Shown here in pieces: positions 15,347 to 33,425 of a DNA stretch of 64,000 nt; within the stretch, counting starts at the first letter, position 1; each line of letters begins with the position of its first letter. The DNA is from Fimbriimonas sp. Its GTDB lineage: Bacteria > Armatimonadota > Fimbriimonadia > Fimbriimonadales > Fimbriimonadaceae. The position numbers and the translations under genes were made by a program. The notes beneath the pieces were generated by a model. The model made no database searches. It had not been told where the DNA came from and saw only the letters and a program-made list of their open reading frames with translations. Location: assembly GCA_031292555.1 (NCBI GenBank), contig JARLGV010000111.1, positions 1 through 64,000 of the forward strand, read 5' to 3'.

Positions 15347-15382
15347 TGATGATCTGCGTTAAATACTAGACGAATACGTACC

Positions 15383-15413
15383 AAAAAAAAGGGCGGGTTA
15401 GTAGGCCACCCGC
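15383..15413 (-). terminator. Intrinsic terminator at the end of the integrase gene
   Basis: On the minus strand GCGGGT pairs with ACCCGC across a 9-base loop and is followed by CC and eight consecutive Ts. The hairpin overlaps the last codons and stop of the integrase gene. It should end transcription of the DUF1016-integrase unit before the methyltransferase gene. Confidence 0.75.
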
Positions 15414-16363
15414 ATAATTTCTGAAAGCTCCAAGCGCGTCTCGCGGCGATCATAGCCTTTAGTTGTTCTCGAGTCGGCGTGGCCGGCAATGTTTTGCGCC
15501 GTCTCAAGGCTGCCGCCGTTTTCCAGGAACGTCGTGATGCCTGTGGCTCGGAACGAGTGACAGGAGAATAGGGAAGGGAGACCGGCGCGATCGAGACGGC
15601 GCTTTACCATCTGTAGCGCTTCGTCCCTATTCATTGCGCGGCCACTCAAACGGTTATGGGCCTGGCCGGTGAATGTCTGAAAGAGCGCAACGCCCTTATC
15701 GATCTTTGCGAACTCAATCCACGCGTCGAGGTCACGCGCTAACACTGGATGACAGGGGATTTCTCTCTCAACGCCGCCTTTTTCTTTAAGGCGGATCATC
15801 GTCTCGCGGCCGAGATCGATGTAGTCCTCGCGCATGAGCTGGCAAGCAGCGGAAGCGCGGGCGAAAGTGTAGGCCATCACGCCTATCAAAGCCCGATCGC
15901 GGAGATCAATCGGCTTTTTGTTACCGATGCTCGCAAACAATTGGTGCATCTGCTCCGGCTGCAGCGCCGGCGTCTTGCCTTCCGTTCTTCGGATCGGATC
16001 CGTTTTCACTTCTCGGGCGGGGTTGTGGCTCATGGCGCCGGTGGCCACCATATGAGAGAACAGCATCCGGAGCGCCGAAAGCTGCCGCTTGATTGTCGCC
16101 GGCCGCCTTTTCTCTTTGACGAGCTGGTCACGATAACGCGCCACATGGACGGCCGTGATCGCATCGAGTGCATAGCCTTTGCCTGCGCACCAGCTCGCGA
16201 ATTGCTTCGCATCGCGGATATAGCTCTCTCGTGTGTTCTCGTTCGAAATCTTTGCGGTGAAAAACTCCTCGGCGGCCTCATGAGGCGATTTGCGGCGGGG
16301 TTCGTCGTGGGCAGGTGATAGATGGCCTGCGAAAGTAGCCAAAACGGGAAGGGAAGTGTTCAT
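15398..16363 (-). CDS. Tyrosine recombinase (phage-type integrase)
   Basis: The 321-residue protein has a SAM-like N-terminal core-binding domain (SYIRDAKQFASWCAGKGYAL). The catalytic domain has all the expected residues: the first Arg in YTFARASAACQLM, the Lys region KEKGGVEREIPCHP, HSFRATG (HxxR), AGHADSRTTKGY with the second His/Gly and the Tyr nucleophile. The N-terminal 30 residues (LPVLATFAGHLSPAHDEPRR) are poorly conserved. The start codon overlaps the DUF1016 stop (ATGA). It may move the island or act on the nearby palindromes. No tRNA or direct-repeat att site was found close to it. Confidence 0.9.
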   Translation of the reverse strand: MNTSLPVLATFAGHLSPAHDEPRRKSPHEAAEEFFTAKISNENTRESYIRDAKQFASWCAGKGYALDAITAVHVARYRDQLVKEKRRPATIKRQLSALRMLFSHMVATGAMSHNPAREVKTDPIRRTEGKTPALQPEQMHQLFASIGNKKPIDLRDRALIGVMAYTFARASAACQLMREDYIDLGRETMIRLKEKGGVEREIPCHPVLARDLDAWIEFAKIDKGVALFQTFTGQAHNRLSGRAMNRDEALQMVKRRLDRAGLPSLFSCHSFRATGITTFLENGGSLETAQNIAGHADSRTTKGYDRRETRLELSEIMRVAY

Positions 16364-17403
16364 GAGTTTTGTGATGCGGAAGATTCGCTGAGCTCCTGTT
16401 CGAGCTGCTCGATCGTAGGCAGGGCAGTGCGTATCTCTTCAGGAAGGCTCTCGGTGAGCTGAAACGTCGAGACGCCTATCGGTTTGCTCATGTCGCGAAG
16501 CGCGTACTCGGCGAGAACACGGTTCTTGTCCTGGCAAAGGATCAGACCGATGGTCGGCGCGTCACCTTCGGTGCGAAGCAGGTCGTCGACTGCGGAGAGG
16601 TAGAAGTTCAGCTTGCCGGCGTATTCGGGTTTGAACTTGGTCGCCTTAAGTTCAATAACCACAAAGCAGTGAAGCCGCACGTGATAGAAGAGTAGGTCAA
16701 GGAAGAAATCCTCGCCGGCGACTTCAATCGGATATTGGCTGCCGACGAAAGCGAAACCCACACCGAGTTCCAACAGAAACTTCCGGACGTGGACCACAAG
16801 CGCTTTCTCGATCTCTCGCTCGTGCGACTCATCGCTCAGGCCCAGAAAATCGAAGTTATACGGGTCCTTGAGCAAATTGTTGGCAAGATCTGATTGGGGT
16901 GCCGGCAACGTGGCGCCGAAGTTGGTCGGGGCGGCGCCTTGGCGCTCGTGAAGCCTGGACTTGATCTGTAGCGAGAGAACGTTGCGACTCCAGCCGTTTG
17001 TAAGTGCTTTCTCCGCGTACCACCGCCTGGTCTGCGGATCATCAATGGTCTGGAGAAGGTGGATGTTATGCCCCCACGGCAATTTCGCAACAAGCTGTTG
17101 CGAAATTGGCTCATCCGGCCAGGCCTTCGCGAAAGCAAGCATGTAGTCGAGATTTCTCGAACTAAAACCCTTCATCTCCGGGAATGCCTTCATGAGGTCC
17201 GCTGAGAGCGCCGGGACGATCTTCTTTCCCCATCCTTGGGTTTCCTGTACGGCGGCAATACGCCGGCCAATGTTCCAGTAGAGCATCACCAGCTCGCTGT
17301 TGACCGCGACGACCGCGCGGATCTGTGCCGATCGGATCTGTTTCTTGAGGTCTTCAAGAAAGGGGCCGTATTCGGCGGGGATGGTTAGGGAAGTGTCATC
17401 CAT
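16360..17403 (-). CDS. DUF1016 (YhcG) family PD-(D/E)XK nuclease-domain protein
   Basis: The start at 17403 is supported by AGGAGA eight bases upstream; an earlier in-frame ATG would run through palindromes. The 347-residue product has the N-terminal DUF1016 domain (LYWNIGRRIAAVQETQGWGK, FSSRNLDYMLAFAKAWPD, LPWGHNIHLLQTI). The C-terminal nuclease domain has FVGSQYPIEVAGEDFFLDLLF, FVVIELKATKFKPEYAGKLN and TIGLILCQDKNRVLAEYAL, with the D...ExK catalytic triad. Family members are often found beside restriction or integrase genes, but their function is unproven. A perfect 13-bp-arm palindrome is embedded in the coding region at 17080-17108. Confidence 0.9.
   Translation of the reverse strand: MDDTSLTIPAEYGPFLEDLKKQIRSAQIRAVVAVNSELVMLYWNIGRRIAAVQETQGWGKKIVPALSADLMKAFPEMKGFSSRNLDYMLAFAKAWPDEPISQQLVAKLPWGHNIHLLQTIDDPQTRRWYAEKALTNGWSRNVLSLQIKSRLHERQGAAPTNFGATLPAPQSDLANNLLKDPYNFDFLGLSDESHEREIEKALVVHVRKFLLELGVGFAFVGSQYPIEVAGEDFFLDLLFYHVRLHCFVVIELKATKFKPEYAGKLNFYLSAVDDLLRTEGDAPTIGLILCQDKNRVLAEYALRDMSKPIGVSTFQLTESLPEEIRTALPTIEQLEQELSESSASQNS
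17080..17108. repeat. Perfect palindrome inside the DUF1016 gene
   Basis: The arms CAATTTCGCAACA and TGTTGCGAAATTG pair perfectly around AGC. In the gene's frame this encodes the ISQQLVAKL stretch between the two DUF1016 sub-blocks. The 13-mer GGCAATTTCGCAA recurs, inverted, in the palindrome cluster upstream of the gene, so the two are probably related. Confidence 0.85.
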
Positions 17404-17418
17404 GATCGGTTCTCCTAG

Positions 17419-17642
17419 TTTCGCAAGTGCCGCTTGCGAAATTGCCCAACAGCGTGCTGGACAGTCTTGCAACAGGCTGTTCCAAAAATCGAATCGCAGA
17501 CATTACTTCCATTCTTTTGCGTTTTTGCAAGCGTGCTTGCAAAAACCTCTGGCCGAATTTGTGCAGCAGGTGTCTGCACAAATCTAGGGACGGACAATAG
17601 CCGTGATTCGCCTCGCATAAAAGGAGTTATGCGAGGCGAATC
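17419..17642. repeat. Run of six different palindromes upstream of DUF1016
   Basis: Listed on the plus strand. 17419-17441: arms TTTCGCAAG/CTTGCGAAA, 5-base loop. 17446-17460: CCAACA/TGCTGG, one mismatch. 17467-17485: TTGCAACA/TGTTCCAA, one mismatch. 17521-17546: GTTTTTGCAAGC/GCTTGCAAAAAC, 2-base loop. 17557-17583: ATTTGTGCAG/CTGCACAAAT, 7-base loop. 17605-17642: GATTCGCCTCGCATAA/TTATGCGAGGCGAATC, 6-base loop. Several share a TTT-n-GCA core but differ in sequence, with matching changes in both arms. The first lies just upstream of the DUF1016 ribosome-binding site, so it would form a hairpin in the 5' leader. Confidence 0.85.
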
Positions 17643-17665: not shown

Positions 17666-17715
17666 TGTCACTTTGCGAACTATTCGGCATTGATTTTTCT
17701 GGATTAAATGGCGTA
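17666..17715 (+). repeat. Solitary B-type transposon left end
   Basis: Bases 17666-17715 match the inverted right end of element B (29376-29425) at about 37 of 50 positions, including the terminal TGTCACTTTGCGAA and a late AAATGGCG block. It is oriented as a left end (element to its right). No partner with a matching target duplication was found, so it looks like the relic of an older insertion. Confidence 0.6.
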
Positions 17716-17778
17716 TTTGACAGCCACCAAAAAGTCAGTGCGGTGCCATTTGCTTTGGAACTATGATAGTGGTACGGG

Positions 17779-18326
17779 TTGTGGAATAGAGATCGGGCGG
17801 GCTTTCAGCCATTCCAGTTCAGTTTCTCCCTCGGGGCGACCTTCCGAAGGACCAAATCATTTAGCATTTATACTGTGGTGACGACGCTAATATGCAGTTT
17901 GATGCTCCTTGGCCCGGTTTCGCAGAAGGGCGGAGTGAAGCGCAATATCATACAGAATGTTCAATATGCGAGTGCGGACAACCCTGTTCTGTTGGACATT
18001 GGCCTGCCGAATTTCCACCGCCGCAATGGAAGGTCGCCTGGGGTAGTCGTCATTCACGGTGGTGGCTGGATAGCTGGCAACCGGCGTGACTCCGTCCCGG
18101 TAGAGGTCTCTTTTGCGTTAATGGACGCCGGCTATGTGGTTGCCAACATCGATTATAAACTCGGTGACAATTCTTGGCCGCAGAATCTCTTTGACTGCAA
18201 AAACGCAGTTCGATATTTTCGTCTGCACGCTCAAGAGTTTGGAATCGACCCTGATCGAATCGGTGTGGTTGGTGCTTCTGCTGGTGGCCACCTGGCAATG
18301 ATGACTGCGCTAACTACTGGTATTGG
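17779..18326 (+). pseudogene. Alpha/beta-hydrolase (BD-FAE-like esterase), 5' half, split by insertion
   Basis: This half carries an export signal (RRTKSFSIYTVVTTLICSLM), the oxyanion motif VVVIHGGGWIAGNRRD and the nucleophile elbow GVVGASAGGHLAMM. It then runs into a transposon end at 18327. The other half, with the catalytic Asp and His, is at 29426-29875. Joining 18326 to 29434 restores one frame (...ALTTGIG-EMEPKGPYSN...) of about 329 residues. The start is uncertain: TTG at 17779 opens the frame, but GTG codons at 17875/17878 follow a TATACT box directly and would give a shorter signal peptide. Because serine and Asp/His are on different halves, neither fragment should be active. Confidence 0.88.
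18319..18326. repeat. Target-site duplication, left copy
   Basis: GGTATTGG here and at 29426-29433 flank the 11.1-kb insertion. The expected duplication for Tn7/Tn5053-type elements is 5 bp; ATTGG inside this repeat would satisfy that if GGT at the right side belongs to the element, as the other right end (25032) is also followed by GGT. Confidence 0.8.
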
Positions 18327-18376
18327 TGTGACTTTCAGAATTATCTGACACCCAATCTTCAGAGATAACTGTCACC
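18327..18376 (+). repeat. A-type terminal repeat, outer left end (L1)
   Basis: It begins TGTGACTTTCAGAATTATCT and contains ATCTTCAGAGATAACTGTCA further in. It matches the inverted right end at 24983-25032 at 44 of 50 positions. Two repeated sub-motifs (AATTATCTG and TCAGAGATAA-TGTCACC) look like transposase-binding sites. Confidence 0.85.
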
Positions 18377-18570
18377 CATAGGAAGCCGGTGGCCGATACC
18401 TCGGGATGTCTCGTTCGGTTCTCTAACAGCCGACCATCGAGCATACGGCGGGAATTTCGGTCGTCGTCGCGCCCGAGCTTAGGCTATGATGAGCAAAGGC
18501 GGGCTACTGGGCAATTGTTGGCTGAGGACTCCCGCACGGGAACAGACTAACAAAAACAGGAACATATGTG

Positions 18571-19950
18571 ATGGAATCATCTACAACAAACCCTCTTAAG
18601 CACGATGGACGACGCCGGGTATTAGGTTGGATACTCCTGTCGCTTGGTTTAGTGTTCCTGCTCTTAAGCCCAATTCCTGGGCATCTCGCTGCTATGAGCA
18701 AAGCGGAAGCTACGGCGGGACAAATAGGGTCAAACGGAGGCATTCGACTCGATATCTTAGCAATCGACAATACAACACGGAGCCAGGAATGGCCGATCAT
18801 CCTAATTGACCAAGGATCTATGCAGCCTCTGCAAATTCGAGGTGTAATACCGTACTCTGGCGGCTATGTCGAGGTGGATAACGGCCCGGCAAGGTATCTG
18901 TCACGAGGGCCATTCGACTTTAGCCGCATTCCACGCCTCATTCTTCTGGGTTTTGTTGCCCTCATAGCTGCGGGGGCCGTACTTCTCTATCTCGATCGTC
19001 TACAGAAACTCCTCGCGTGGTCAAGGACTCGTAAAGGTCTTGCCTTCTTGGCACTTGTAACAGTTGGTGTGCTTGGCGCTCTTATATGGCTCGCCGCCAA
19101 ATCATTAGCGCCTGCCAATCCGGAATTCATAAATGCCGCCGATACCGGGGACATAGAAAAGCTTCGGGCCATCATCGGGCGTGGCGTGAACGTAAACGCG
19201 AAGAGCGAGCACGGTCACACAGCGCTGCAACTTGCAGCCGAGGGCGGACATGTAGAATGCGTGGACTTGCTTCTGAAGAGCGGAGCAGACGGGAACGAAC
19301 CGTGTGAGGGCGGCATAACCGCTCTGATGCTGGCGCTTCGCACTGACATGCCTTCAAAAAGTGAATTAGCAATCGTCCAGGACTTCATATCGCACCACGT
19401 AGACCTCAATGCAAGGGACGACTCCGGTTATGACGCCCTTATGATAGCAATCATTAACGATAACCTTGACGTGGCTCAGTTACTTGTCAAAGGCGGATCC
19501 AATGTGAATGGCAAGGACAAAGAGGGCACTACCCAATTAATGCACGCTTCCTTTGAACATCGTGGTACGCGCATGGCTCAATTCCTGCTTCGTTCAGGGG
19601 CTAAAGTGAATGAGCGAAGCGAATCCGGTGAGACTGCACTTATGGTCGCTTCTGGTCTTGGCAGTATGGATATGGGCTATTCAGGTAGTCATCTGGACAC
19701 CATGAAAGTACTGCTTGTCGCTGGTGCGGACCCTAACGCGAAAGATGTTGCGGGCAATACCGCGCTAATGGGGGCGGTACGCGGGCCTCTAGGTGATGGC
19801 AGCGCCGAAGAGTGCGTACGTGTTCTTCTAGCGGCACATGCCGATCCTAATGCAAAGGACAGCGGCGGGAAATCGGTACTCGCACAGGCACAGCAGATCG
19901 GCGCATCGCCAGCAGTTATTCGTGAGCTAAAAGCGCTTGGCGCTAATTAA
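18571..19950 (+). CDS. Membrane-anchored ankyrin-repeat protein
   Basis: The 459-residue protein has a hydrophobic helix at about residues 18-40 (ILLSLGLVFLLLSPIPG) and an extracytoplasmic-looking loop. Two more helices follow at about 120-140 and 155-175 (LILLGFVALIAAGAVLLYL; FLALVTVGVLGALIWLAA). From ~185 there are seven or so ankyrin repeats (GHTALQLAAEGGHVECVDLLLKSGA, SGETALMVAS, GNTALMGAV) reaching the C-terminus. By topology the repeats would lie on one face of the inner membrane as a protein-binding scaffold. AGGA lies 11 bases before the ATG; a GTG one codon earlier is possible. It sits between the two A-type left ends, so it is cargo of the outer unit only. Partner unknown. Confidence 0.8.
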   Translation: MESSTTNPLKHDGRRRVLGWILLSLGLVFLLLSPIPGHLAAMSKAEATAGQIGSNGGIRLDILAIDNTTRSQEWPIILIDQGSMQPLQIRGVIPYSGGYVEVDNGPARYLSRGPFDFSRIPRLILLGFVALIAAGAVLLYLDRLQKLLAWSRTRKGLAFLALVTVGVLGALIWLAAKSLAPANPEFINAADTGDIEKLRAIIGRGVNVNAKSEHGHTALQLAAEGGHVECVDLLLKSGADGNEPCEGGITALMLALRTDMPSKSELAIVQDFISHHVDLNARDDSGYDALMIAIINDNLDVAQLLVKGGSNVNGKDKEGTTQLMHASFEHRGTRMAQFLLRSGAKVNERSESGETALMVASGLGSMDMGYSGSHLDTMKVLLVAGADPNAKDVAGNTALMGAVRGPLGDGSAEECVRVLLAAHADPNAKDSGGKSVLAQAQQIGASPAVIRELKALGAN

Positions 19951-19978
19951 TGCTTTCGCAGCACAGAAATTCCCGCAG

Positions 19979-20028
19979 TGTCCCTTTCAGAATTATCTGT
20001 CTCTCGATCTTCAGAGATAATTGTCACC
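19979..20028 (+). repeat. A-type terminal repeat, inner left end (L2)
   Basis: It begins TGTCCCTTTCAGAATTATCT and matches the inverted A right end at 43 of 50 positions. The flanks (CCCGCAG on the left here; GGTTTGC after 25032) show no duplication. Confidence 0.85.
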
Positions 20029-20238
20029 GCCGGTCAAGGTGATGACAACCATCAGGCCCTCCCTGGCGGTTTCCACTATTTGCCGCGTGCGCCAGAATTC
20101 GAATCGAAGACAGTGCGATCCCCTTGCGTTCGCGCTCCAGGTCGGCTCCAGGTATCTGACCTGTCTAACCGATAAGATCTTACCCTCTAGCCAAAACATG
20201 GTTCAAAATGACTCGTTGCCTTGCAAGCCCTTAGTGCG

Positions 20239-21402
20239 TCATTTACTTCCCGCACGGTCCCGCAACAACTCCTTCATCTTATTATCGTGGGCCACTTTGA
20301 GGGGCGTCCGCCCGTCGACCTTGACGTTAACGTCAGCGCCGGCGTTGAGCAGTAACTCTGCGATGTGTATGTGACCTCCTAGTGCGGCCCAGTAAACGAC
20401 GGGCTGCCCGGAGAGCTCGGCTCCTTTGTCGACTAACAGTTGCACAACCGTCTCGTGGCCAGCGTACGCCGCCGTGCCAAGTGGCGTCGTGCTACCGGGC
20501 CCCGCCCCCGCATTGAGGTCGGCCCCGTATTCCAGGAGCAACTCCGCAACTTCCTTGTGGCCCGCTTTCGCCGACACGTGAAGTGGGGTTGTGCCATTGG
20601 GCCCAGACGCATTGACGTCGGCTCCATGGTCCAAGAGCAACTTGGCGATTTCGCGCTTACCAATCTTCGCCGAAACATGCAATGGAGTTTCATTATCGTT
20701 GTTCTTGGTGACGGGAGAAGCGCCCTTTTCTAGCAGCAGTGCTGCGATCTGTACATTCTGTGCCACATGAAGTGGCGTATTTCCTTGGCGATCCTGGCCG
20801 CTCGGATCGACCGTGCTTTGCAGTAGCTCTCTTACTAAGCTTTCGCTTTCGTTTTCCGCTGCCAGGAGCAAGGGTGCTGTCCCGTCATTAGAGACTGCGC
20901 TTGGATCGGCACCCATCGCCAACAGTGCCATTGCGGTTTCAACGTGGTTTGCCCGAATCGCCCAAAACAGCGGGGTAGTCCCATCTGTTGCCCTGCGATC
21001 CACATCGGAGCCGTCCTGGGCAAGATCTCGGATCAGATCCGCCCGGTTCGCCAATGCTGCCCAGTGTAACGGAGTCGATGAGGCCCTCATGTCCCGCACG
21101 AACTGAGATTGAGCCCTATCTGGACCGGCATCGCTAACCATCAATTGCCCACCGAAAAGTCCCGCAAGGAGGCCACCGCCTGCCAATGGCCAAGGATTGT
21201 TCATCATCTCTTGGCCAAAAGCAGCACCAGCGACCGCTCCGACCAGCCCTATGAGACCTATCATTAAAGGATCGAGAATCGCATCCGAATTTGACCCCGA
21301 CGGCTTGCGCCGACCCTGCCTTTTCGCCATGGAATTGCATTTCCTACAGGTGAATTCTACGAGATCCCGTCCGCAGATTGGGCAACCTTGAAACATTGCC
21401 AT
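20239..21402 (-). CDS. Zinc-ribbon, glycine-zipper ankyrin-repeat protein
   Basis: The 387-residue protein begins with a zinc ribbon (CPICGRDLVEFTCRKC). A glycine-rich hydrophobic segment follows (PLMIGLIGLVGAVAGAAFGQ and PLAGGGLLAGLFGG) at about residues 44-90, probably one or two membrane passes. About eight ankyrin repeats follow (TPLHWAALANRADLIRDLAQ, TPLFWAIRANHVETAMALLA, TPLHVSAKIGKREIAKLLLD, TPLHVSAKAGHKEVAELLLE). It is divergent from the recombinase-TniA-TniB operon of element A and lies inside it, so it is cargo or an accessory gene. It is not a close copy of the other ankyrin protein. Ligand unknown. Confidence 0.8.
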   Translation of the reverse strand: MAMFQGCPICGRDLVEFTCRKCNSMAKRQGRRKPSGSNSDAILDPLMIGLIGLVGAVAGAAFGQEMMNNPWPLAGGGLLAGLFGGQLMVSDAGPDRAQSQFVRDMRASSTPLHWAALANRADLIRDLAQDGSDVDRRATDGTTPLFWAIRANHVETAMALLAMGADPSAVSNDGTAPLLLAAENESESLVRELLQSTVDPSGQDRQGNTPLHVAQNVQIAALLLEKGASPVTKNNDNETPLHVSAKIGKREIAKLLLDHGADVNASGPNGTTPLHVSAKAGHKEVAELLLEYGADLNAGAGPGSTTPLGTAAYAGHETVVQLLVDKGAELSGQPVVYWAALGGHIHIAELLLNAGADVNVKVDGRTPLKVAHDNKMKELLRDRAGSK

Positions 21403-21550
21403 TCAACTATACATGACTCTCTTGGAGGCCGCCAACGATGATGGCGACGACCGCGTCCTTTAATTTAACACCTTCCCTTTCTTAGCAGTTGGCTTTGAAA
21501 ATGAGCGATCCACATGGGGGACAGCCAAGGATCGAACAGGCTAACGAGAA

Positions 21551-21578
21551 TCCTGTGATAATATTTGTTATCGCAGGA
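21551..21578. other. dif-like 11-6-11 recombination site upstream of the element A recombinase
   Basis: The arms TCCTGTGATAA and TTATCGCAGGA are complementary at 10 of 11 positions around the 6-base spacer TATTTG. This is the exact geometry of XerCD/dif-type crossover sites. It lies 90 bases upstream of the recombinase start. A perfect extra half-site is at 21646-21656. Confidence 0.65.
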
Positions 21579-21645
21579 AAAAGCCCTGCGCGTCGTGCGG
21601 TTTCAATCCTGACGGTTGGATCACAGCGGACCGCGAAATCTATTG

Positions 21646-21656
21646 TTATCACAGGA
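21646..21656 (+). other. Extra recombinase half-site
   Basis: TTATCACAGGA is the exact reverse complement of the left arm of the site at 21551-21578 and lies 12 bases before the recombinase start codon. It could be an accessory or autoregulatory binding site. Confidence 0.5.
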
Positions 21657-21667
21657 ACAAGAAACTC

Positions 21668-22570
21668 TTGGTGCAAACCGAACGTCAGCCGCCGGAATTG
21701 GACATGACGCTCCAGGAGAGTGTCGAGCGCTTTCTCGGCGACATGAACCGGGCAAACCATTCGCCGAACACGCAGCGCGCCTACAAGACCGATCTCGCCC
21801 AGTTTGCCGCTCTTGCCCCAGTCAGCTTGTGGGAGGTTTCGACAGACTCGCTTCGGGCATTTGGACAGTCCATCGAAAGTCTGGCCCCTGCTACGCGTGC
21901 CCGGAAGCAGGCCTCGCTTGCCAGCTTCCTAAGTTGGGCTTGCCGGCAGGATTTACTGATCGCCAATCCCATGGACCGAGTAGAACGAGTGCGGCGTGAG
22001 CCGCCTCTGCCTCGGGGGGTTGGCCGCCAGAGCGTTGAGCGTATCCTTGGCGTCATCGACGCGAGCGAGCTACGCGACCGGCTGCTCTTTCGGCTCATCT
22101 TCGAAACTGGATTGCGCATTAGCGAAGCGCTCGGGGTCCATGTCGAGGACCTTGACTTGGCCATGGACAATGAGCGGCTGACACTTACTGGCAAAGGTGG
22201 GAAACAGCGGACGATATTGCTCGACGATCCCCGCCTTCTGCGCCAACTCCGCTCCTATCTTAAGAAGATGGGATACCGGCATGGTCCCTTGTTCCGAGCC
22301 CAAAAGAATGGCCGGGGCGGGCCGCTGCGCTATCAATCCGTGCAGGAGCGGTGGGCTGGTTACTGTCGGGAAGTGGGTGTCGAATGCACGCTGCACCAGC
22401 TCCGGCACACCCATGCCACTGAACTCGTCAACGACGGGGTGAGTCTCGCCACGATCCGAAAGCGTTTGGGGCATCGCAATTTGCAGACGACCCTACGCTA
22501 TGCCGAACAGTCCGATGCTGCCGCAGACGCGGAAGTACGGGCCTGGCGCCGACGTCGCCTTGAACAATAA
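21668..22570 (+). CDS. XerC/D-like tyrosine recombinase of element A
   Basis: The 300-residue protein has the SAM-like domain (LGDMNRANHSPNTQRAYKTD). A complete catalytic set follows: LIFETGLRISEALG (Arg), LTGKGGKQRTILLDD (Lys), LHQLRHTHATELVND (HxxR), IRKRLGHRNLQTTLRYAEQ (His and Tyr). The start is TTG 21668, GTG 21671 or ATG 21704; the last gives the usual family N-terminus. It lies directly before tniA (10 bases between stop and GTG), so all three genes are probably co-transcribed. In replicative Tn3/Tn5053-like elements a site-specific recombinase resolves cointegrates; the dif-like site upstream suggests the same job here (inference). Confidence 0.88.
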   Translation: MVQTERQPPELDMTLQESVERFLGDMNRANHSPNTQRAYKTDLAQFAALAPVSLWEVSTDSLRAFGQSIESLAPATRARKQASLASFLSWACRQDLLIANPMDRVERVRREPPLPRGVGRQSVERILGVIDASELRDRLLFRLIFETGLRISEALGVHVEDLDLAMDNERLTLTGKGGKQRTILLDDPRLLRQLRSYLKKMGYRHGPLFRAQKNGRGGPLRYQSVQERWAGYCREVGVECTLHQLRHTHATELVNDGVSLATIRKRLGHRNLQTTLRYAEQSDAAADAEVRAWRRRRLEQ

Positions 22571-22580
22571 GGATATAGGG

Positions 22581-24038
22581 GTGGACGTTCTGCTATCAAA
22601 CCTGACGTCTGACGAGCGGGAACGTGCTTTGGAGCGGTTTCGTGTTCTCACGCCGTTTCTGGAAGACGGCCAAACTCTTCAATCGATAGCAGTCACATCC
22701 GGTCAATCGCTGCGCAACCTCAGACGGTGGGTCCGCCGATATCGAGCCGAAGGGCTCGCTGGATTGTCTCGGAAGGCGCGACGCGACGGCGGACAGCATC
22801 GGGTGCTGACCACCGAAATTTCGCATCTCATCGAAGGGTTGGCCCTGCAGAAGCCTCCTCTGACGGTTGCCGTCATCCATCGACAAGTTCGTCAAGTCGC
22901 TATCGGGGGCGGCCTTGTGCCACCCAGCTACTCCCTGGTTTATCAAATCGTGCGGGGCATTCCGGACGCCCTAATGACCCTGGCCCAGGACGGCAGCAAG
23001 GTTTACTCCCAAACCTTCGATCTGGTTCATCGGCGCGAAGCAGACGGCCCAAACGCGATATGGCAGGCGGACCATTGTCTGCTCGACATCCTACTGGTCC
23101 GGGAAGGAGAGCCACCGGCAAAGCCGTGGCTCACCATCGTCCTCGACGACTACAGTCGCGCGGTCGCGGGGTACTTCCTGACGTTCGATGCGCCTTCCTC
23201 ACTTAACACATCACTCGCCCTCCGCCAAGCTATATGGCGTAAAGAAAATCCCCACTGGCACATTTGCGGTATCCCGGACGTGCTCTACACAGACAATGGC
23301 AGCGACTTCACCTCGCTCCATCAAGAGCAGGTCGCCGCCGACCTAAAAATCCGCCTGATCTTTTCCCTGCCGGGGCATCCTCGTGGACGCGGTCGCATCG
23401 AGCGGTTCTTTCAAACGGTACAGGAAATGTTCCTTTGCGAATTGCCCGGCTACTCCCCGGAGGGTGGTGCGATGAGAGGTAAGCCAACGTTGACCTTGCG
23501 GGATTTGAGCGAATGTTTCGGGCGCTTTCTTTATGAAACCTATCACGTCCGTATTCAGAACGAGACCGGTACAACGCCCAACGCGCGTTGGGAAGCCAAC
23601 GGCTTTCTCCCGCGCATGGCAGACTCGCTGGAGCAGTTGGACTTGCTTCTGATCACGGTCGTCCGTTCACGCAAGGTGCATCCCGACGGGATCCACTTCC
23701 TGGGCATGCGCTACATCGATCCCAACCTGGCTGCGTACGTCGGGGAGAGCGTGATCCTGCGTTACGACCCGCGCGATGTCGCCGAGGTGCGCGTCTTTCA
23801 GCAAGACCACTTTCTCTGCCGTGCGGTCTGTCAGGAACTTGCCGGCGAGACTGTGCCTCTTCGCGACGTCCTCCAAGCTCGAAACCGGCGGCGACGAGAG
23901 CTGAAGCAGACCCTCACCGATCGTCAGCGGGTGGTGGACGCGCTGCTGCAGGTCCGAAGGTGGAACAAGGAAGACGGCAAGGACGAGCCTGCCGTCGCTC
24001 CCGCCTTGCCGGCGCTGAAGCGGTATATCCATGAATAA
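22581..24038 (+). CDS. tniA: TniA-like DDE transposase of element A
   Basis: The start is GTG 22581, matching the homologous gene at 26982 and with AAGGA 8 bases upstream; a longer frame would overlap the recombinase gene. The 485-residue product has an N-terminal helix-turn-helix (SLRNLRRWVRRYRAEGLAGL) and an rve/RNase-H core. The catalytic D164 is in WQADH, D238 in YTDNGSDF and E274 in GRGRIERFF; D and E are separated by 35 residues. A Mu-type C-terminal beta-barrel follows (ESVILRYDPRDVAEVRVFQQ). It would cut and join the A-type ends. It is clearly homologous along its length to the module B transposase but far from identical. Confidence 0.93.
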   Translation: MDVLLSNLTSDERERALERFRVLTPFLEDGQTLQSIAVTSGQSLRNLRRWVRRYRAEGLAGLSRKARRDGGQHRVLTTEISHLIEGLALQKPPLTVAVIHRQVRQVAIGGGLVPPSYSLVYQIVRGIPDALMTLAQDGSKVYSQTFDLVHRREADGPNAIWQADHCLLDILLVREGEPPAKPWLTIVLDDYSRAVAGYFLTFDAPSSLNTSLALRQAIWRKENPHWHICGIPDVLYTDNGSDFTSLHQEQVAADLKIRLIFSLPGHPRGRGRIERFFQTVQEMFLCELPGYSPEGGAMRGKPTLTLRDLSECFGRFLYETYHVRIQNETGTTPNARWEANGFLPRMADSLEQLDLLLITVVRSRKVHPDGIHFLGMRYIDPNLAAYVGESVILRYDPRDVAEVRVFQQDHFLCRAVCQELAGETVPLRDVLQARNRRRRELKQTLTDRQRVVDALLQVRRWNKEDGKDEPAVAPALPALKRYIHE

Positions 24039-24975
24039 GTTGCCGCCGGTCGGTGAAGACGGGTTCGTCGTCACACAGGAGTACCGCCGTTTCGCCGAAT
24101 TCTGCGACGCTTGCCGCCATTATCGCTACATCGGTCTTTGCTGCGGCCCGCCCGGTGTGGGAAAGACGCTCTCTGCTCGTCGATACGCCGGGTGGGCGAG
24201 GCTCGAAACCTGCGAACCTCGGAAGGAAACCATTGACGACCTATGCGAGGTGAAAGGAAGCAATACGGTCCTTTACACGCCGGAGGTAATCAACTCGCCA
24301 GGTCGGATTGGGCAAGACATCGAGACTCTGCGCCGCCGCCTACAGTCGATCCCATTCGAGATTCTCGACCGGCAGCAAAAGCCCGTCCTCGATGGTTTCC
24401 TTGCACACGAAGAGGAGCTTCGGAAGAAGTTCTATATGGAAACGGACTGGATGTTTGGCCCGCCAGTGAACAGAGACGCTCTTGATGGTGAACGGCTTGC
24501 CCTTTACGAGGAGATGGCGAAGCAGCGCTCCGAGATTCATGATCCGACAAGTTTGGTCCTGGTTGATGAAGCAGACCGATTGAAGATGGCCAGCCTTGAG
24601 CAGATGCGATCGATCTACGATGCGGGCGGGATTGGGTTGGTTTTCATCGGAATGCCCGGTCTTGAAAAGCGTCTTGCCCGGTACCCGCAGTTCTATTCTC
24701 GCGTCGGGTTCGTTCACACGTTTCGCCCTCTCGGAGCTAACCAGATGCGTGAACTTCTGCAGGAATGGAACCCACCGGATCTGCGGCTTCCCGAGAACAG
24801 CCTTAGGGACGGGGAAGCAGTGGCGGCAATCATCAGGATCACGGGCGGCAACTTCCGCCTTCTGCATCGCTTACTAGCGCAAGCCGCCCGACTGATGGAA
24901 ATCAACGGGATCGCCAGCGTCACCCGGCAGGTTGTCGAAACCGCTCGGGAAAGCCTGGTCATCGGCACCGGCTAA
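24031..24975 (+). CDS. tniB: TniB-like AAA+ ATPase of element A
   Basis: The 314-residue protein overlaps tniA by 8 bases. It has a Walker A loop (GPPGVGKTLSARRYA, Lys45), a Walker B (SLVLVDEADRLK, Asp179/Glu180), then a sensor-type IGLVFIGMPGLEKRL and ARYPQFYSRVGFVHTFRPL. The distinctive start YRRFAEFCDACRHYRYIGLC is shared with module B. In Tn5053, Mu and Tn7 the equivalent protein (TniB, MuB, TnsC) binds target DNA and recruits the transposase. The middle insertion (residues ~95-160, EILDRQQKPVLDGF, DWMFGPPVNRDAL) is less typical. The usual third partner TniQ is absent. Confidence 0.92.
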   Translation: MNKLPPVGEDGFVVTQEYRRFAEFCDACRHYRYIGLCCGPPGVGKTLSARRYAGWARLETCEPRKETIDDLCEVKGSNTVLYTPEVINSPGRIGQDIETLRRRLQSIPFEILDRQQKPVLDGFLAHEEELRKKFYMETDWMFGPPVNRDALDGERLALYEEMAKQRSEIHDPTSLVLVDEADRLKMASLEQMRSIYDAGGIGLVFIGMPGLEKRLARYPQFYSRVGFVHTFRPLGANQMRELLQEWNPPDLRLPENSLRDGEAVAAIIRITGGNFRLLHRLLAQAARLMEINGIASVTRQVVETARESLVIGTG

Positions 24976-24982
24976 CGTGCAG

Positions 24983-25032
24983 GGTGACAATTATCTCTGA
25001 AGATTTGGTGACAGATAATTCGCAAAGTGACA
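24983..25032 (-). repeat. A-type terminal repeat, right end
   Basis: Read on the minus strand it starts TGTCACTTTGCGAATTATCT and has ATCTTCAGAGATAATTGTCA further in. It pairs with L1 (44/50) and L2 (43/50). The tniB stop is 7 bases before it. Confidence 0.88.
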
Positions 25033-25114
25033 GGTTTGCTTCGCCGCGTCCGGAAAGGGACGTGCGAGATGGCTCGAAGGGTAGACGTGCGACGATGTAT
25101 AATCGGCTAAATAG

Positions 25115-25591
25115 GTCAAACCTCGGCCGGCCTTCGAACTGGACCGGAACTGCCTGCTTCCGCTCCCCGACTACTCGCCGTCGCGCATGACGTTCGCCCT
25201 TGTCGACAAACTCAGCCTGGTTCGCTTCGACGGCGTCTCCTACAGCGTTCCGACGAAATTCGTTCACAACTCGGTGCTCGTGCGGGCCAAGCCCTTCGAT
25301 CTGGAGATATTGTCCGGCGCCAAGCTTGTCGCCCGCCATGTCCGAAGCTACGAGCGGGGCCGAGGTTTCGCCACTTTGGAGCACTACCTCGACCTGTTGG
25401 AGCGAAAGCCCCGGGCGGTGAAGAACGCGCTGCCCGTAATTCAGGCAGGGTTGCCGGCGGAGTTCGAGACGTTCCGCCGATTCGCTAGCGACGGAACGGG
25501 GGTCGGCGACCGCAGGTTCCTAGGCGTCTTGTCTAGCGCTCGCGGTCGTCCTCCGCAGGGTACGACCGTCATTCGCGGTGCCGCACAGTGA
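25115..25591 (+). pseudogene. IS21-family IstA transposase, C-terminal remnant
   Basis: The frame opens after a stop at 25112 and reads LPLPDYSPSRMTFALVDKLS, then VRFDGVSYSVPTKFVHNSVL, LVARHVRSYERGRGFATLEH and YLDLLERKPRAV. These are the C-terminal beta-barrel and tail of IS21 IstA. The helix-turn-helix and DDE core are missing and no istB follows. The end (SSARGRPPQGTTVIRGAAQ) is not IstA-like. It is a decayed IS21 copy trapped between elements A and B. Confidence 0.8.
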
Positions 25592-25602
25592 TAGAATAGG
25601 CC

Positions 25603-26712
25603 GTGAGGATCGCTCCAGGATTGTTTGCGTTCGCAGTTGCGCTTCTGACGGGCGCCGGCGGTTGCGGCGAAGGACGCAAGCAGACCGCCGTGGTACAGGT
25701 AGGCAGCCAGGCTCGACCCGTGGATCCGCCTGCTGCTACCGGTAGGCTGATCTTTTGTGCTATGGAAAACCGCCGAAGTGGCATCTACATAGTGCATTCT
25801 GACGGAACTGGCTTGACCAGAATAAGTGTCCCCACCGACGAGGCGTGGACGTTCTCACTTTCATCCGCGGGCACCGTCGCCTATCTCGCTGGCGATATGA
25901 AGCTAATTCACGTGGCCAGCGTTGACGGCGGCAAAGATGCAGTCGTAACTCCGGGAACAAGGGGCAATGCGTTTCCCTCGTGGTCGCCGGACGGAAAGAG
26001 GCTCGCATTCAACCGGCTAATTGACGGCTCCTATCAGATCTTCGTTTGTGATCAGGATGGCACCAACACCCATCAGCTTACTCTCGACCCCGGTGACAAA
26101 TTCAGGCCAACTTGGTCTCCCGACAGCAAGTCATTGCTTTACACGCGTGAGCTAGCCCAGACCCAACAGTTGTTCGTCGTCACACCTGATGGTTCCAATC
26201 AGGTCAATCTGTCTAACAACACGTTCACTGATCATGGGGGTTGCTGGTCGCCGGACGGGACTAGCATCATGTTCACGCGCTATCGCGACGGCAAGAACCG
26301 CATTTGCACGATGAACGCGGATGGTTCTGGCCAGCGTGAAATTACAAGCGGCAGCCTGAACGACTCCGACGAAACGTGGTCGCCTGACGGGAGCAGAGTA
26401 GCTTTCATCAGATACGTCACGGATTACGACAGACGTATTTACGTGATGAAACCAGACGGCAGCGGCCAGCGTGAAATCCCTCTCGATAGCTGGATCGAGG
26501 CGAAAGATGAAACGCTAGAGCCAAGAGCGCCCGCATGGTCGCAGGATGGCCGATACATCGCTTTCGCGCTGATGCGGCATGGACTGGTCGGAGGGGGCTT
26601 TGACCAGCGATTCGCACGACTCGCGGTCGTGTCCGCAGATGGCCACGGTAAGCACTTCGTGACAGGCGCTTCTTTTGACCAGGTTGGCGATCCGCTATGG
26701 AGCCGCAACTAG
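25603..26712 (+). CDS. PD40 (TolB-like) beta-propeller lipoprotein
   Basis: The 369-residue protein starts at GTG 25603 with a short signal (IAPGLFAFAVALLTGAGG then Cys) that looks like a lipobox. It contains about five to six PD40 repeats with the typical phrase WSPDGK/WSPDSK (FPSWSPDGKRLAFNRLIDGS, RPTWSPDSKSLLYTREL, GGCWSPDGTSIMFTRYRDGK, DETWSPDGSRVAFIRYV, APAWSQDGRYIAFALM), forming one propeller. The fold is that of the TolB C-terminal domain; a protein- or sugar-binding role at the envelope is likely but unspecified. It lies between the A right end and B left end and so was carried in with the composite element. Confidence 0.8.
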   Translation: MRIAPGLFAFAVALLTGAGGCGEGRKQTAVVQVGSQARPVDPPAATGRLIFCAMENRRSGIYIVHSDGTGLTRISVPTDEAWTFSLSSAGTVAYLAGDMKLIHVASVDGGKDAVVTPGTRGNAFPSWSPDGKRLAFNRLIDGSYQIFVCDQDGTNTHQLTLDPGDKFRPTWSPDSKSLLYTRELAQTQQLFVVTPDGSNQVNLSNNTFTDHGGCWSPDGTSIMFTRYRDGKNRICTMNADGSGQREITSGSLNDSDETWSPDGSRVAFIRYVTDYDRRIYVMKPDGSGQREIPLDSWIEAKDETLEPRAPAWSQDGRYIAFALMRHGLVGGGFDQRFARLAVVSADGHGKHFVTGASFDQVGDPLWSRN

Positions 26713-26807
26713 CCTCCGCCTTCCACCACGCCTCTCGGTTCGCGGTGTTCGCGTTTCTAGCCCATTAAGGACTAGAGTCCGACATTAACCTTGTTTCAGC
26801 ATTGCTT

Positions 26808-26921
26808 CTAATTCATAGACCTGCACTCCGTGCACCTTGACCGGACGAGCCCGTGCTCGCACAAAGTCGCGTTGTGACCTTTTCGATCATCGAAGTGCTG
26901 ACATTTTCGGCAATCACTGTG
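26808..26921 (-). pseudogene. Cysteine-rich 3' gene fragment cut by element B
   Basis: On the minus strand, starting exactly at the element B border, one frame reads DCRKCQHFDDRKGHNATL then CEHGLVRSRCTECRSMN and a stop. The CxHGxxRxxCxxC spacing is that of a small zinc-knuckle motif and unlikely by chance in a shadow frame. Upstream of it the frame continues only into the transposon repeat, so the gene's 5' part is gone. Confidence 0.4.
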
Positions 26922-26971
26922 TTTCACTTTGCAAATTATCTGGCGTAAATATTTGCGCGCTATTTGGCGTA
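26922..26971 (+). repeat. B-type terminal repeat, left end
   Basis: It reads TTTCACTTTGCAAATTATCT followed by GGCGTAAATATTTGCGCG. Two GGCGTAA-like sub-repeats (TCTGGCGTAA and TTTGGCGTAA) resemble paired transposase-binding sites. The tniA GTG follows 11 bases later, so the promoter must lie within the end. Confidence 0.82.
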
Positions 26972-26981
26972 ACCTCGCGTA

Positions 26982-28457
26982 GTGGACCAACTGGCCGCTT
27001 TGTCGGAGGAAGCTCGAACGCTTGCACTCGGTCGTTTCCGCCTTCTACAGCCGCACTTGGAAAAGGACGTTTCCCTGAGGCTGGTCGCTGCGGACGCTGG
27101 AATCACCTTCCGGACAGCGCAACGTTGGGTTGGGTTTTACCATCGTTTTGGCTTGGTCGGGCTCTCCCGGAAAAATCGGGCAGACAAAGGAGAGCCAAGG
27201 GCGGTTTCCACGAAGCTAAAAGAGGCCATGGAGGGTCTTGCTCTTCAAAGACCCCCACTCCCCATTTCAGTCATTTGCCGCCAAATACGCCGCCTTGCTA
27301 AAGACACCGGGGAAGACTCTCCCAGTTATTGGGTCGTTTATCGTACCGTCACCGCATTGCCCTCAGACCTGACTACTCTTGCACACAAAGGGAGCAAGGC
27401 GTATGGAGAATCCTTCGAACTGATTCATCGGCGTGAAGCTGATGGCCCGAACGCAATTTGGCAAGCCGACCACACGCCCCTTGACATTCTGGTGTTGCGG
27501 CCCGATGGTCGAGTTGCGAATCCATGGCTCACGGTCGTAATCGACGACTACAGCAGGGCTGTGACCGGTTACTTTCTCTCATTCGAGCCTCCGTGTTCGC
27601 TTCACACTTCGCTGGCATTGCGCCAAGCGATTTGGAGGAAAGGAGATTCACGATGGGTCGTTTGCGGCATCCCTGATGTTCTTTACACGGATAACGGGAG
27701 CGACTTCACGTCGCGCCATCTTGAGCAAGTTGGTGCCGATCTTAAAATCCGGTTGGTCTTCTCCATTCCCGGCAAGCCAAGGGGCCGGGGCCGAATTGAG
27801 CGGTTCTTTTCGACCGTCAACGAGATGTTCCTCTGCGAGTTGGATGGCTATGCTCCCTCAGGCGGAACCGTGCGCGGAAAGCCGACGCTGACCCTTGCCG
27901 AATTGGATGCCAGGTTCCACACCTTTCTGCTTGACGTTTATCACCGGTGCGAAAACAGCGAAACCAAGACACGGCCGGTAGAGCGATGGGAAGCCGGTGG
28001 ATTCTTGCCCCGGATGCCCGACTCGCTCGAACAACTGGACTTGCTCCTCATTAGAGTGGCCAAGTCGCGGCAGGTAAGAGCCGATGGAATTTACTTCCAA
28101 AGTCTTCGATACATTTCAACCACGCTGGCAGCCTACGTTGGCGAAACGGTGACTCTGCGGTACGACCCTCGGGACATGGGCGAGGTCAGAGTCTTCCACG
28201 AAGAGAAGTTCTTGTGCCGGGCAGTTTGTGCCGAACTTGCCGGCGAAACCGTTCCTCTTCGAGAGATTATCACGGCTCGGAATCGCAGGCGCCGCGAACT
28301 GCGTGGGGTTCTAAAGGACCGTCAGAAGACCGTGGATACCCTCCTGGAACTGAAGTGTGGCGAGGGCAAGGAGAAGCTAGATGAGCCACCAACGCCAAGA
28401 ACCAAGCGAACGCCCAAGCGGACCACACCTGAACTCAAGCGATATCGGAACGAGTAG
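26982..28457 (+). CDS. tniA: TniA-like DDE transposase of element B
   Basis: The 491-residue product has the helix-turn-helix region (ITFRTAQRWVGFYHRFGLVG). In the catalytic core, D163 is in WQADH, D237 in YTDNGSDFTS and E273 in GRGRIERFF, again with 35 residues between the last two. The Mu-type C-terminal barrel reads GETVTLRYDPRDMGEVRVFH. It is co-linear with the element A protein, with blocks of near identity (EADGPNAIWQADH, MPDSLEQLDLLL, AVC.ELAGETVPLR) and diverged stretches. It starts with GTG right after the left terminal repeat, a typical IS layout. The C-terminal tail is Lys/Pro-rich (RTKRTPKRTTPELKRYRNE). Confidence 0.93.
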   Translation: MDQLAALSEEARTLALGRFRLLQPHLEKDVSLRLVAADAGITFRTAQRWVGFYHRFGLVGLSRKNRADKGEPRAVSTKLKEAMEGLALQRPPLPISVICRQIRRLAKDTGEDSPSYWVVYRTVTALPSDLTTLAHKGSKAYGESFELIHRREADGPNAIWQADHTPLDILVLRPDGRVANPWLTVVIDDYSRAVTGYFLSFEPPCSLHTSLALRQAIWRKGDSRWVVCGIPDVLYTDNGSDFTSRHLEQVGADLKIRLVFSIPGKPRGRGRIERFFSTVNEMFLCELDGYAPSGGTVRGKPTLTLAELDARFHTFLLDVYHRCENSETKTRPVERWEAGGFLPRMPDSLEQLDLLLIRVAKSRQVRADGIYFQSLRYISTTLAAYVGETVTLRYDPRDMGEVRVFHEEKFLCRAVCAELAGETVPLREIITARNRRRRELRGVLKDRQKTVDTLLELKCGEGKEKLDEPPTPRTKRTPKRTTPELKRYRNE

Positions 28458-28473
28458 CAAAGGACTGTCGGTC

Positions 28474-29367
28474 ATGGTCGAAACGCTCGAACATCGCCGG
28501 TTCGTGGAGTTCTGCGACGCTTGTCGCCGCTACCGATACATCGGGCTGTGCTTCGGAGCGCCGGGAGTTGGGAAGACACTGTCAGCGAGACATTACAGTC
28601 GCTTCGAGGCGGTTAAGGACTCGGACCGCCGGACGGCGTGCATTGCTGAAGGCGCCCCACCGGACACGGTCTTCTACACACCTTCGGTTGTGAACACGCC
28701 GCGCACCATAGACCTCGCCATTAGGCGCTCTCGCGACTCCATCCGAAACCTTGCAAAACGGCCCCTGAGACTTGAAATGGAAGAGAAGTTGAACGCAATC
28801 CGGCTACGAGACGAGAACTACAAGTCTGAGATTCTGCGCAAGCATGATTGGTTTTCAAGGCCAGTTCCCGAACTCAGACCCACATATGGTGAAGTGGCCA
28901 GGGCTTACTCCATAAAGGAAATGGAGATCGCTGACCCTACCGCACTCATCCTAGTCGACGAAGCCGACCGCTTGCGGATGGCAAGCCTAGAACAGGTTCG
29001 AGCCATCTTCGATGCCGGAAACATCGGCATGATTCTGGTCGGGATGCCGGGCATCGAAAAGCGTCTTGCCAGATACCCCCAGTTCTACTCTCGCATCGGA
29101 TTTGTGCATGAGTTTCGGCCCCTCGCCGCGAATGAGATTCGTGATCTCTTGGAAAAGGGCTGGGTGCCTCCCGGAGTGAACCTTCCCGAACGACCTCTCG
29201 ACCCAGAGACAATAGCGGCGATTATTCGAATGACGGCTGGCAACTTCCGACTTCTGAACCGCCTCCTAACCCAAATTGAGCGAATTCTTGAGGTCAACTC
29301 ACTCCAAGAAGTAACGAAGGCCGCTGTGGAAGCAGCTCGCGAGAGCCTGGTGATTGGAGAGGCCTGA
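28474..29367 (+). CDS. tniB: TniB-like AAA+ ATPase of element B
   Basis: The start at ATG 28474 has AAAGGA 9 bases upstream and gives the same N-terminus as the element A homologue (HRRFVEFCDACRRYRYIGLC). A longer frame overlaps tniA by 77 bases. The 297-residue protein has Walker A (GAPGVGKTLSARHYS), Walker B (ALILVDEADRLRMASLEQVR), the sensor stretch IGMILVGMPGIEKRLARYPQ and the C-terminal helical lid (IAAIIRMTAGNFRLLNRLLT). Its stop is 8 bases before the right terminal repeat. Target-capture ATPase by homology to TniB/MuB/TnsC. Confidence 0.92.
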   Translation: MVETLEHRRFVEFCDACRRYRYIGLCFGAPGVGKTLSARHYSRFEAVKDSDRRTACIAEGAPPDTVFYTPSVVNTPRTIDLAIRRSRDSIRNLAKRPLRLEMEEKLNAIRLRDENYKSEILRKHDWFSRPVPELRPTYGEVARAYSIKEMEIADPTALILVDEADRLRMASLEQVRAIFDAGNIGMILVGMPGIEKRLARYPQFYSRIGFVHEFRPLAANEIRDLLEKGWVPPGVNLPERPLDPETIAAIIRMTAGNFRLLNRLLTQIERILEVNSLQEVTKAAVEAARESLVIGEA

Positions 29368-29375
29368 GGTTCACT

Positions 29376-29425
29376 TGCGCCATTTATCGCGCAAAGAATT
29401 ACGCCAAATAATTCGCAAAGTGACA
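29376..29425 (-). repeat. B-type terminal repeat, right end of element B and of the composite
   Basis: On the minus strand it begins TGTCACTTTGCGAATTATTT, then GGCGTAATTCTTTGCGCG, pairing with 26922-26971. It is followed directly by the right copy of the target duplication. Confidence 0.85.
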
Positions 29426-29433
29426 GGTATTGG
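29426..29433. repeat. Target-site duplication, right copy
   Basis: GGTATTGG repeats 18319-18326 and continues into the hydrolase 3' half without a frame break. Confidence 0.8.
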
Positions 29434-29875
29434 CGAGATGGAGCCAAAGGGGCCGTACTCCAACGTTTCTGATTCCGTCAGGTGCGCGATAGACATGTAC
29501 GGGCCCGGCGACCTAAGCGTCGGCGACCGACAGGACGAGCCGTATCTCCGGGCAAGTATGAACAAGTTTGCACGCGCGTTCGGTGCCGCATCGCTCAACG
29601 ATGAAGTGCTACGCCAAGCCTCCCCGGTTCGCTACATCAAACATCGATCTCCACCCATAATGGTCATGTTTGGAAAGGCAGACGATATTCTCGAATGGAC
29701 GCAGGGCGAGGAGATTGCGGACGCGCTTCGCAAGAACGACGTCCCGACGGCTAAAGTGTTCTTGGACGACATTGGGCATAATTTCGATTGGGAAAGCTGG
29801 AACAGGCGACCTCTTACGCGGGACGTGAAACAGATCTCGTTGGCCTTTCTCAACAAGTATCTAGATGGTAATTAA
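29426..29875 (+). pseudogene. Alpha/beta-hydrolase, 3' half
   Basis: The frame supplies the C-terminal half of the split esterase: IMVMFGKADDILEWTQGEEI with the catalytic Asp, and FLDDIGHNFDWES with the catalytic His, ending ISLAFLNKYLDGN. It lacks its own start and nucleophile. The coding frame is undamaged up to its stop, so the disruption looks recent. An upstream ATG at 29439 could allow translation of a fragment, but it would be inactive. Confidence 0.88.
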
Positions 29876-31833: not shown

Positions 31834-32562
31834 GTGATGACCACGATGCGAACGATGCCTCCGCCTCCACGAAACGTGCGGATCAAACGGTCCAGCCACA
31901 TCCTGCGGGTTTTCGTTTGGGTGCTCCTCGCATTGACGGGTTTCGGCATTCCTCTCGGCATGAATCGACAGACACACCGGCTCACCCTGCTCATGGAGCA
32001 GGGACACATAGTCCACGCCCAGGTGATCACCGGCCGGATCTCACGCGGGAAGTCAACCAGCCACTACCTGACCATCACCTTCAGCGATCGCGGGTTTGTA
32101 TACTCGGGCGAACAGCGAGTTCCTTACTACATCTATGACACGTACGTACAGGCGCCTGAAGTACCGGTCGTGACTATGCCAGACGATCCATCTAGCTTCG
32201 AAGTTGGCGAGATGACCCAAGATCGGATTGATCACGCAAAGCTGCCTTGGGAGGTCCTTGGATCGATGTTTGCCGTGGTGATCGTGTTCGTGTTGGGCTC
32301 AATCGAATACACGTTGAACTTCGAACGGAGGTTGCTGACGAAGGGACAGGTGGCGATCGGGCGCGTCGAAGCCCTGATCCCAGGCAAAACCTCGTACGTT
32401 AAATACACGTACGTGACACGGTTCGGTGAACGTGCCGCAAAGCGGTCCACGCCGACGGTGCGCCGGTTCACGGTTGGCGAAGAGATCGAGGTTCTGTACG
32501 ATCCAGACAATGACAGGGACTCGTTGCCCACGAGCTTGTTCCAGATGTGCGAAATCGCCTAA
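31834..32562 (+). CDS. DUF3592-like membrane protein, paralogue 1 of 3
   Basis: The 242-residue protein has two transmembrane helices (about 30-50, FVWVLLALTGFGIPLGM; about 145-165, VLGSMFAVVIVFVLGSIEY). The loop between them has the pattern GRISRGKSTSHYLTITFSDR and VPVVTMPDDPSSFEVGEM. A C-terminal DUF3592-like segment ends EEIEVLYDPDNDRDSLP. The start is one of two adjacent ATGs (31834, 31837). It is the first of three tandem homologues with the same length and architecture, all with a PPPR...R.K/R.. N-terminus. Function unknown. Confidence 0.72.
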   Translation: MMTTMRTMPPPPRNVRIKRSSHILRVFVWVLLALTGFGIPLGMNRQTHRLTLLMEQGHIVHAQVITGRISRGKSTSHYLTITFSDRGFVYSGEQRVPYYIYDTYVQAPEVPVVTMPDDPSSFEVGEMTQDRIDHAKLPWEVLGSMFAVVIVFVLGSIEYTLNFERRLLTKGQVAIGRVEALIPGKTSYVKYTYVTRFGERAAKRSTPTVRRFTVGEEIEVLYDPDNDRDSLPTSLFQMCEIA

Positions 32563-32637
32563 TTTGCGGTCTGGGGACGAAGCATGAGACGGATGGCAGC
32601 CAGCTTGCGTGGAACCCACGTACAATGGGCCAGACCT

Positions 32638-33378: not shown

Positions 33379-33425
33379 GCGCCACAACCTCTTGGCGATT
33401 CACACCGTAAAATAACCGGCAAGCA

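Follow-up and report, generated by a model that had tools for sequence, protein, structure and literature searches.

A block of 11.1 kb in the window (the whole 64-kb stretch of Fimbriimonas sp. DNA that was analysed), running from 18327 to 29425, is material held in one insertion point of an esterase gene. The block contains two Tn552/Tn5053-like TniA/TniB transposons, A and B, and lies between two copies of an 8-bp repeat, with an A-type end on the left and a B-type end on the right. Two readings of these mixed outer ends are rated nearly equal. Slightly ahead, at a probability of roughly 45%, is recombination between near-identical right-end termini, which would have replaced the right end of an A element at a site that was already duplicated. 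The other is a single transposition in which one transposase paired the unlike ends. A chance match, an assembly artefact and other histories share the small remainder. Under either reading, the block shows a route by which such composites arise.

The interrupted esterase gene

The sequences on either side of the block are the two parts of a BD-FAE alpha/beta-hydrolase gene, divided between the flanks with the repeat in frame (Table 1). Joining the flanks with one copy of GGTATTGG gives a single open frame, and removal of both copies breaks it. The sequence-only reading had proposed a search of related genomes for the empty site; none was found in the collections searched, and because the best-matching esterase relatives are only 35–41% identical, the test was done on the protein level. 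There, the rejoined esterase aligns without gaps over the junction (...TTGIGEMEPKGP...) with four relatives from other genomes (L040, L041, L042 and L046), and more distant homologues have small gaps at the variable loop holding the junction. This gapless read-through with a single copy of the repeat indicates that the block fills one insertion site.

Table 1. Features of the block and of the esterase gene that it interrupts (window positions; "." for no strand)
Feature	Position	Strand	Remarks
Esterase gene (BD-FAE), 5' part	17779..18326	+	PF20434 positions 1-110; ends with left GGTATTGG
Left copy of 8-bp target duplication, GGTATTGG	18319..18326	.	abuts A left end
A-type left end	18327..18377	+	two transposase-site repeats; 98% identical to G005 A left end
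Ankyrin-repeat protein (cargo)	18568..19950	+	
Second, decayed A-type end (TGTCCC...)	19979..20028	+	no duplication with any right end
Ankyrin-repeat protein (cargo)	20239..21402	-	
Putative res region	21551..21660	+	TGTGATAAtatttgTTATCGCA core and second inverted copy; function inferred
Tyrosine recombinase of A, putative cointegrate resolvase	21668..22570	+	PF00589, 3e-31
TniA-A transposase	22500..24038	+	HTH, rve, Mu C-terminal; DDE motifs present
TniB-A AAA ATPase	24031..24975	+	AAA_22
A-type right end	24982..25032	-	outer 12 bp (TGTCACTTTGCG) B-type
24-bp right-end direct repeat, copy 1	25012..25035	.	23/24 identical to copy 2
IS21-type IstA transposase remnant (C-terminal part)	25187..25591	+	PF22483; IS21 inferred from family match
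TolB-like beta-propeller protein	25603..26712	+	PF07676
B-type left end	26922..26972	+	begins TTTCAC
TniA-B transposase	26982..28457	+	rve and Mu C-terminal; 61% identical to TniA-A
TniB-B AAA ATPase	28381..29367	+	AAA_22
B-type right end	29375..29425	-	outer 24 bp identical to G004 B right end
24-bp right-end direct repeat, copy 2	29405..29428	.	23/24 identical to copy 1
Right copy of GGTATTGG	29426..29433	.	abuts B right end
Esterase gene, 3' part	29426..29875	+	PF20434 positions 129-215; gapless join

GGTATTGG occurs only twice in the 64 kb, both times on the plus strand. The A-type sequence TGTGACTTTCAGAATTATCTG directly follows the left copy and the B-type sequence ...CAAATAATTCGCAAAGTGACA directly precedes the right one, so that both junctions lie exactly where the sequence-only reading had placed them. 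That reading had allowed, as its alternative, successive insertions and a deletion that happened to leave a matching repeat. An origin of this kind, with independent events and a repeat matching by chance, is strongly disfavoured. Most family copies checked have no duplication, which makes rearrangement common, but an abutting 8-bp match arises at only about 4e-5 of random position pairs in this window, seven inward-facing end pairs are available, and the flanks correspond exactly to the halves of a single gene. When all recognisable ends on the examined contigs of four genomes were scanned, short MITE-like pairs included, an abutting exact repeat of at least 7 bp was found only at 18327/29425. 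The scan otherwise listed one 6-bp match with weak ends and, where ends were poor or shifted, two 8-bp matches that each contain a single mismatch; it gave no target duplication for the cognate A pair or the cognate B pair within the block.

An assembly artefact, in which the common 24-bp right-end sequence led reads of an A insertion to be joined with those of a separate B insertion, is very improbable. The genome is in 140 contigs, and a metagenome-assembled genome is among its near relatives, which leaves room for a misjoin. Against it, the assembly holds just one A and one B transposase, and the outer flanks make up one gene with one duplication. A length of 24 bp is also shorter than the k-mers usual for a final assembly graph, which argues against a join at this repeat.

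The length of the duplication was compared with that of relatives with cognate ends. Four of these have duplications, of 6, 7, 8 and 8 bp: CCTGAC on a Scytonema plasmid, CGGTGGC in Acinetobacter variabilis, CTTTCAGC on Dinoroseobacter shibae pDSHI01 and GGTTTGCG on Methylobacterium fujisawaense plasmid 2. Many other family copies have good ends and no duplication. Consequently, 8 bp is normal for the family and a missing duplication is uninformative. For Tn552, 6-bp repeats are reported, with 10 bp on certain plasmids and no repeat on others (PMC3276174), and Tn5053 makes 5-bp duplications (PMC3960245). The TniA/TniB transposon of D. shibae is present on several plasmids (L098, L097 and L116), and an 8-bp duplication was seen at one of the three copies examined.

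Two related transposons and their ends

Both elements encode a DDE (rve) transposase with a Mu C-terminal domain and an adjacent AAA ATPase. The A module, 21551–25032, additionally has a tyrosine recombinase, and B is made up of transposase and ATPase only, with no recombinase between 26922 and 29425. The ATPases are 52% identical. Identity of the transposases varies by region, from 45–47% in the end-binding part to 73% in the catalytic domain.

The gene content resembles that of several known systems. Like Tn552 of Staphylococcus, which has two transposition genes (p480 and p271), a resolvase, inverted-repeat ends and a short duplication (PMC3276174), and like the replicative, res-associated Tn5053/Tn402 family with its tniA-tniB type module (PMC3960245), the block combines a transposase with an ATPase. 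The 8-bp duplication at its mixed pair differs from the 5-bp duplications of the latter family (PMC3960245). The block departs from Tn552 in the tyrosine recombinase of A, in the lack of a recombinase in B, and in the presence of both elements at a single site whose outer ends are mixed. The Tn5053/Tn402 family also carries TniQ and the serine resolvase TniR, and neither was seen among the proteins searched here. In place of a serine resolvase of its own, element A encodes a tyrosine recombinase accompanied by a putative res; on that feature A and B are called Tn552/Tn5053-like and not members. Relatives with this gene order occur widely on plasmids. Those on staphylococcal plasmids have transposases 46–47% identical, and the closest plasmid relative of TniA-A (56%) is an element of Scytonema sp. 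NIES-4073 (AP018266), which has a tyrosine-recombinase-like gene upstream and perfect 22-bp ends (TGTCACTTTGATAATTATTTAG) but differs from the block in its cognate ends, 6-bp duplication and cargo. Insertion near res sites is a mark of Tn552/Tn5053-like transposons. In many of the plasmid relatives a recombinase gene adjoins the transposase; the target of the block is inside an esterase gene. The nearest solved-structure relative of the transposases is TnsB, PADLOC matches them to the V-K TnsB model, and TniA and TniB match the TnsB and TnsC of type V-K CAST systems. A type V-K CAST was considered and rejected, as no ORF of the block (largest 512 aa) is long enough for Cas12k.

Each outer end has its own partner inside the block, as the sequence-only reading had it. 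The A right end is 88% complementary to the A left end over 51 nt, and positions 26924–26972 of the B left end pair with 29375–29423 (49 nt, 84%). TG...CA termini with repeated transposase sites are found at the A ends and at the B right end; the B left end starts with TT both here and in the copy of G004, a third genome of the genus. The decayed end at 19979 is similar to a solo A-type end at G000:C135:90368. The outer 12 bp of the A right end are those of B right ends, and five other A ends differ from them at three positions, which suggests that A and B right ends exchanged sequence earlier. Such an exchange would supply the homology that recombination between ends needs. The 24-bp direct repeat, CA[G/A]ATAATTCGCAAAGTGACAGGT, has one mismatch and includes three flanking bases (GGT) outside the element. 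The two ends share 17 of their outer 21 positions, and the inner halves differ between types at both repeats (TCACC vs GCGTAA).

Origin of the mixed outer ends

In the reading placed slightly ahead, the block combines two related replicative transposons into a mosaic at one esterase site. The first event would have been insertion of an A-family element through an A-left and an A-type right end of its own, with duplication of GGTATTGG. Later, B and 1.9 kb of neighbouring DNA would have been placed to the right of the A module, ahead of the second GGTATTGG copy, by recombination of right-end termini over 21–24 bp of near identity. A B-bearing segment may have integrated at the A right end, or a nested insertion may have been followed by loss of the DNA between the original A right end and that of B. 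Either exchange would swap the right end abutting the duplication and leave the duplication itself unaltered. The tyrosine recombinase and res of A would probably serve to resolve cointegrates; the order of events, these roles and the identity of the acting transposase are inferred from the present arrangement. Removal of 25033–29425 in silico leaves a normal A element whose ends are cognate and whose GGTATTGG duplication is perfect.

Recombination between ends accounts for the single site by ordinary steps, with the needed homology present and reaching past the element boundary. The B-type outer bases of the A right end point to an earlier exchange of this kind, the divergent end-binding regions and inner halves argue against easy cross-use of ends, and the model predicts that B would have lost its cognate duplication. 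Against it, more steps are needed than for one hybrid transposition. Repeats of 21–24 bp are near the lower limit for homologous recombination, and this one is correspondingly short. Integration would call for either a 4.4-kb circle devoid of replication genes or a donor segment bordered by right ends, and neither was found; the nested version presupposes another A right end, since lost, and no duplication accompanies the inner A pair (19979/25032). Furthermore, the outer part of the A right end must have been B-like before the exchange took place, as one crossover with an A end of the usual kind would put A-type bases at 29425. That feature does not by itself separate the two models.

Nearly as probable is that one TniA synapsed the A-left end with the B-right end of an element whose transposase is 61% identical (about 46% in the end-binding region) and moved both modules as an 11.1-kb composite in one event, making GGTATTGG. 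A and B would have lain 1.9 kb apart in the donor, and the cointegrate would have been resolved by the tyrosine recombinase of A. The 8-bp duplication is of family-typical length and lies exactly at the mixed pair and at no other, and the outer bases of the two ends are largely common to both. Cognate pairs with no duplications are expected if the outer copies stayed in the donor, the flank of the A right end (GGTTTGCT) resembles the genuine target of the Methylobacterium copy, and the fewest events are needed at this site. The divergence of the end-binding domains and the difference of the inner binding sites at both repeats weigh against cross-pairing, and the phylum sample yielded no donor and no second A-left/B-right junction. 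A literature search on non-cognate end pairing in the Tn552/Tn5053-like family gave nothing usable.

The single site, the duplication and the mismatched outer ends described by the sequence-only reading are thus real, and the hybrid event that it drew from them is not proven. Its conclusion that one of the transposases can pair a non-cognate end does not follow: with right-end termini that are nearly identical, a crossover or deletion between them keeps GGTATTGG automatically, and the duplication does not discriminate. For the same reason, insertions followed by deletion need no chance match, contrary to what that reading supposed.

An ordinary composite transposon likewise has passenger DNA between two elements and an outer end pair bordering one duplication, but its outer ends belong to two copies of a single element and are cognate, which those of the block, with its diverged transposases, are not. 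If hybrid pairing occurred, end specificity in Tn552/Tn7-type systems would be looser than binding-domain divergence suggests, unlike elements could mobilise the DNA between them, and diverged family members could build composites. If the ends recombined, then for ends with about 20 bp in common, a perfect duplication around a mismatched pair would be no proof of hybrid transposition.

Related copies and surroundings

Among 291 genomes of the phylum, other carriers of A or B were limited to G004, with B at 89% identity, and G005 (L003), an uncultured Armatimonadetes metagenome-assembled genome of the same genus with an A transposase 92% identical. The collections searched contained no second A-left/B-right junction, which the sequence-only reading had suggested looking for elsewhere. 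No donor or second copy of the enclosed DNA was found in the same genome or eight relatives, the exceptions being isolated A-type ends and, in G019, an IS21-like stretch, and no relatives were found on viral contigs. The A elements of the block and of G005 are homologous at the left end and in everything rightward from 21551, and the DNA between is unrelated. The break falls exactly at the inverted-repeat site upstream of the recombinase gene, so the left-arm cargo was probably exchanged there by site-specific recombination.

No duplications were found at the G005 A element, the G004 B element or the short MITE-like pairs. The G005 element (L003 6195-6235 / 12531-12570) lies between inverted, not direct, copies of GGTAGCAAC, an arrangement reminiscent of insertion into a palindromic recombination site. 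MITE-like elements of about 130–260 bp with B-type ends and no target duplication occur in several genomes of the genus, for example at 1838–2099 and 5788–5943 of L081 (G000:C119) and in L082, L083 and L084.

A B-like right-type end (TGTCACTTTGCGAACTATTCGGC...) at 17666–17720 faces right about 110 bp upstream of the esterase ORF. It has no partner, and TAGAAGTC, the sequence flanking it, is unique within the window; this end may be a remnant of an earlier insertion by which the esterase gene arrived. Further upstream, on the minus strand of 12843–17472, a BsuBI/PstI-type restriction enzyme, a Type II methyltransferase, a tyrosine integrase and a DUF1016/YhcG nuclease follow in a row, likely a mobile defence island adjoining the insertion. 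Downstream, at 31834–34157, three successive genes encode similar proteins of 242–264 aa, two of which match DUF3592.
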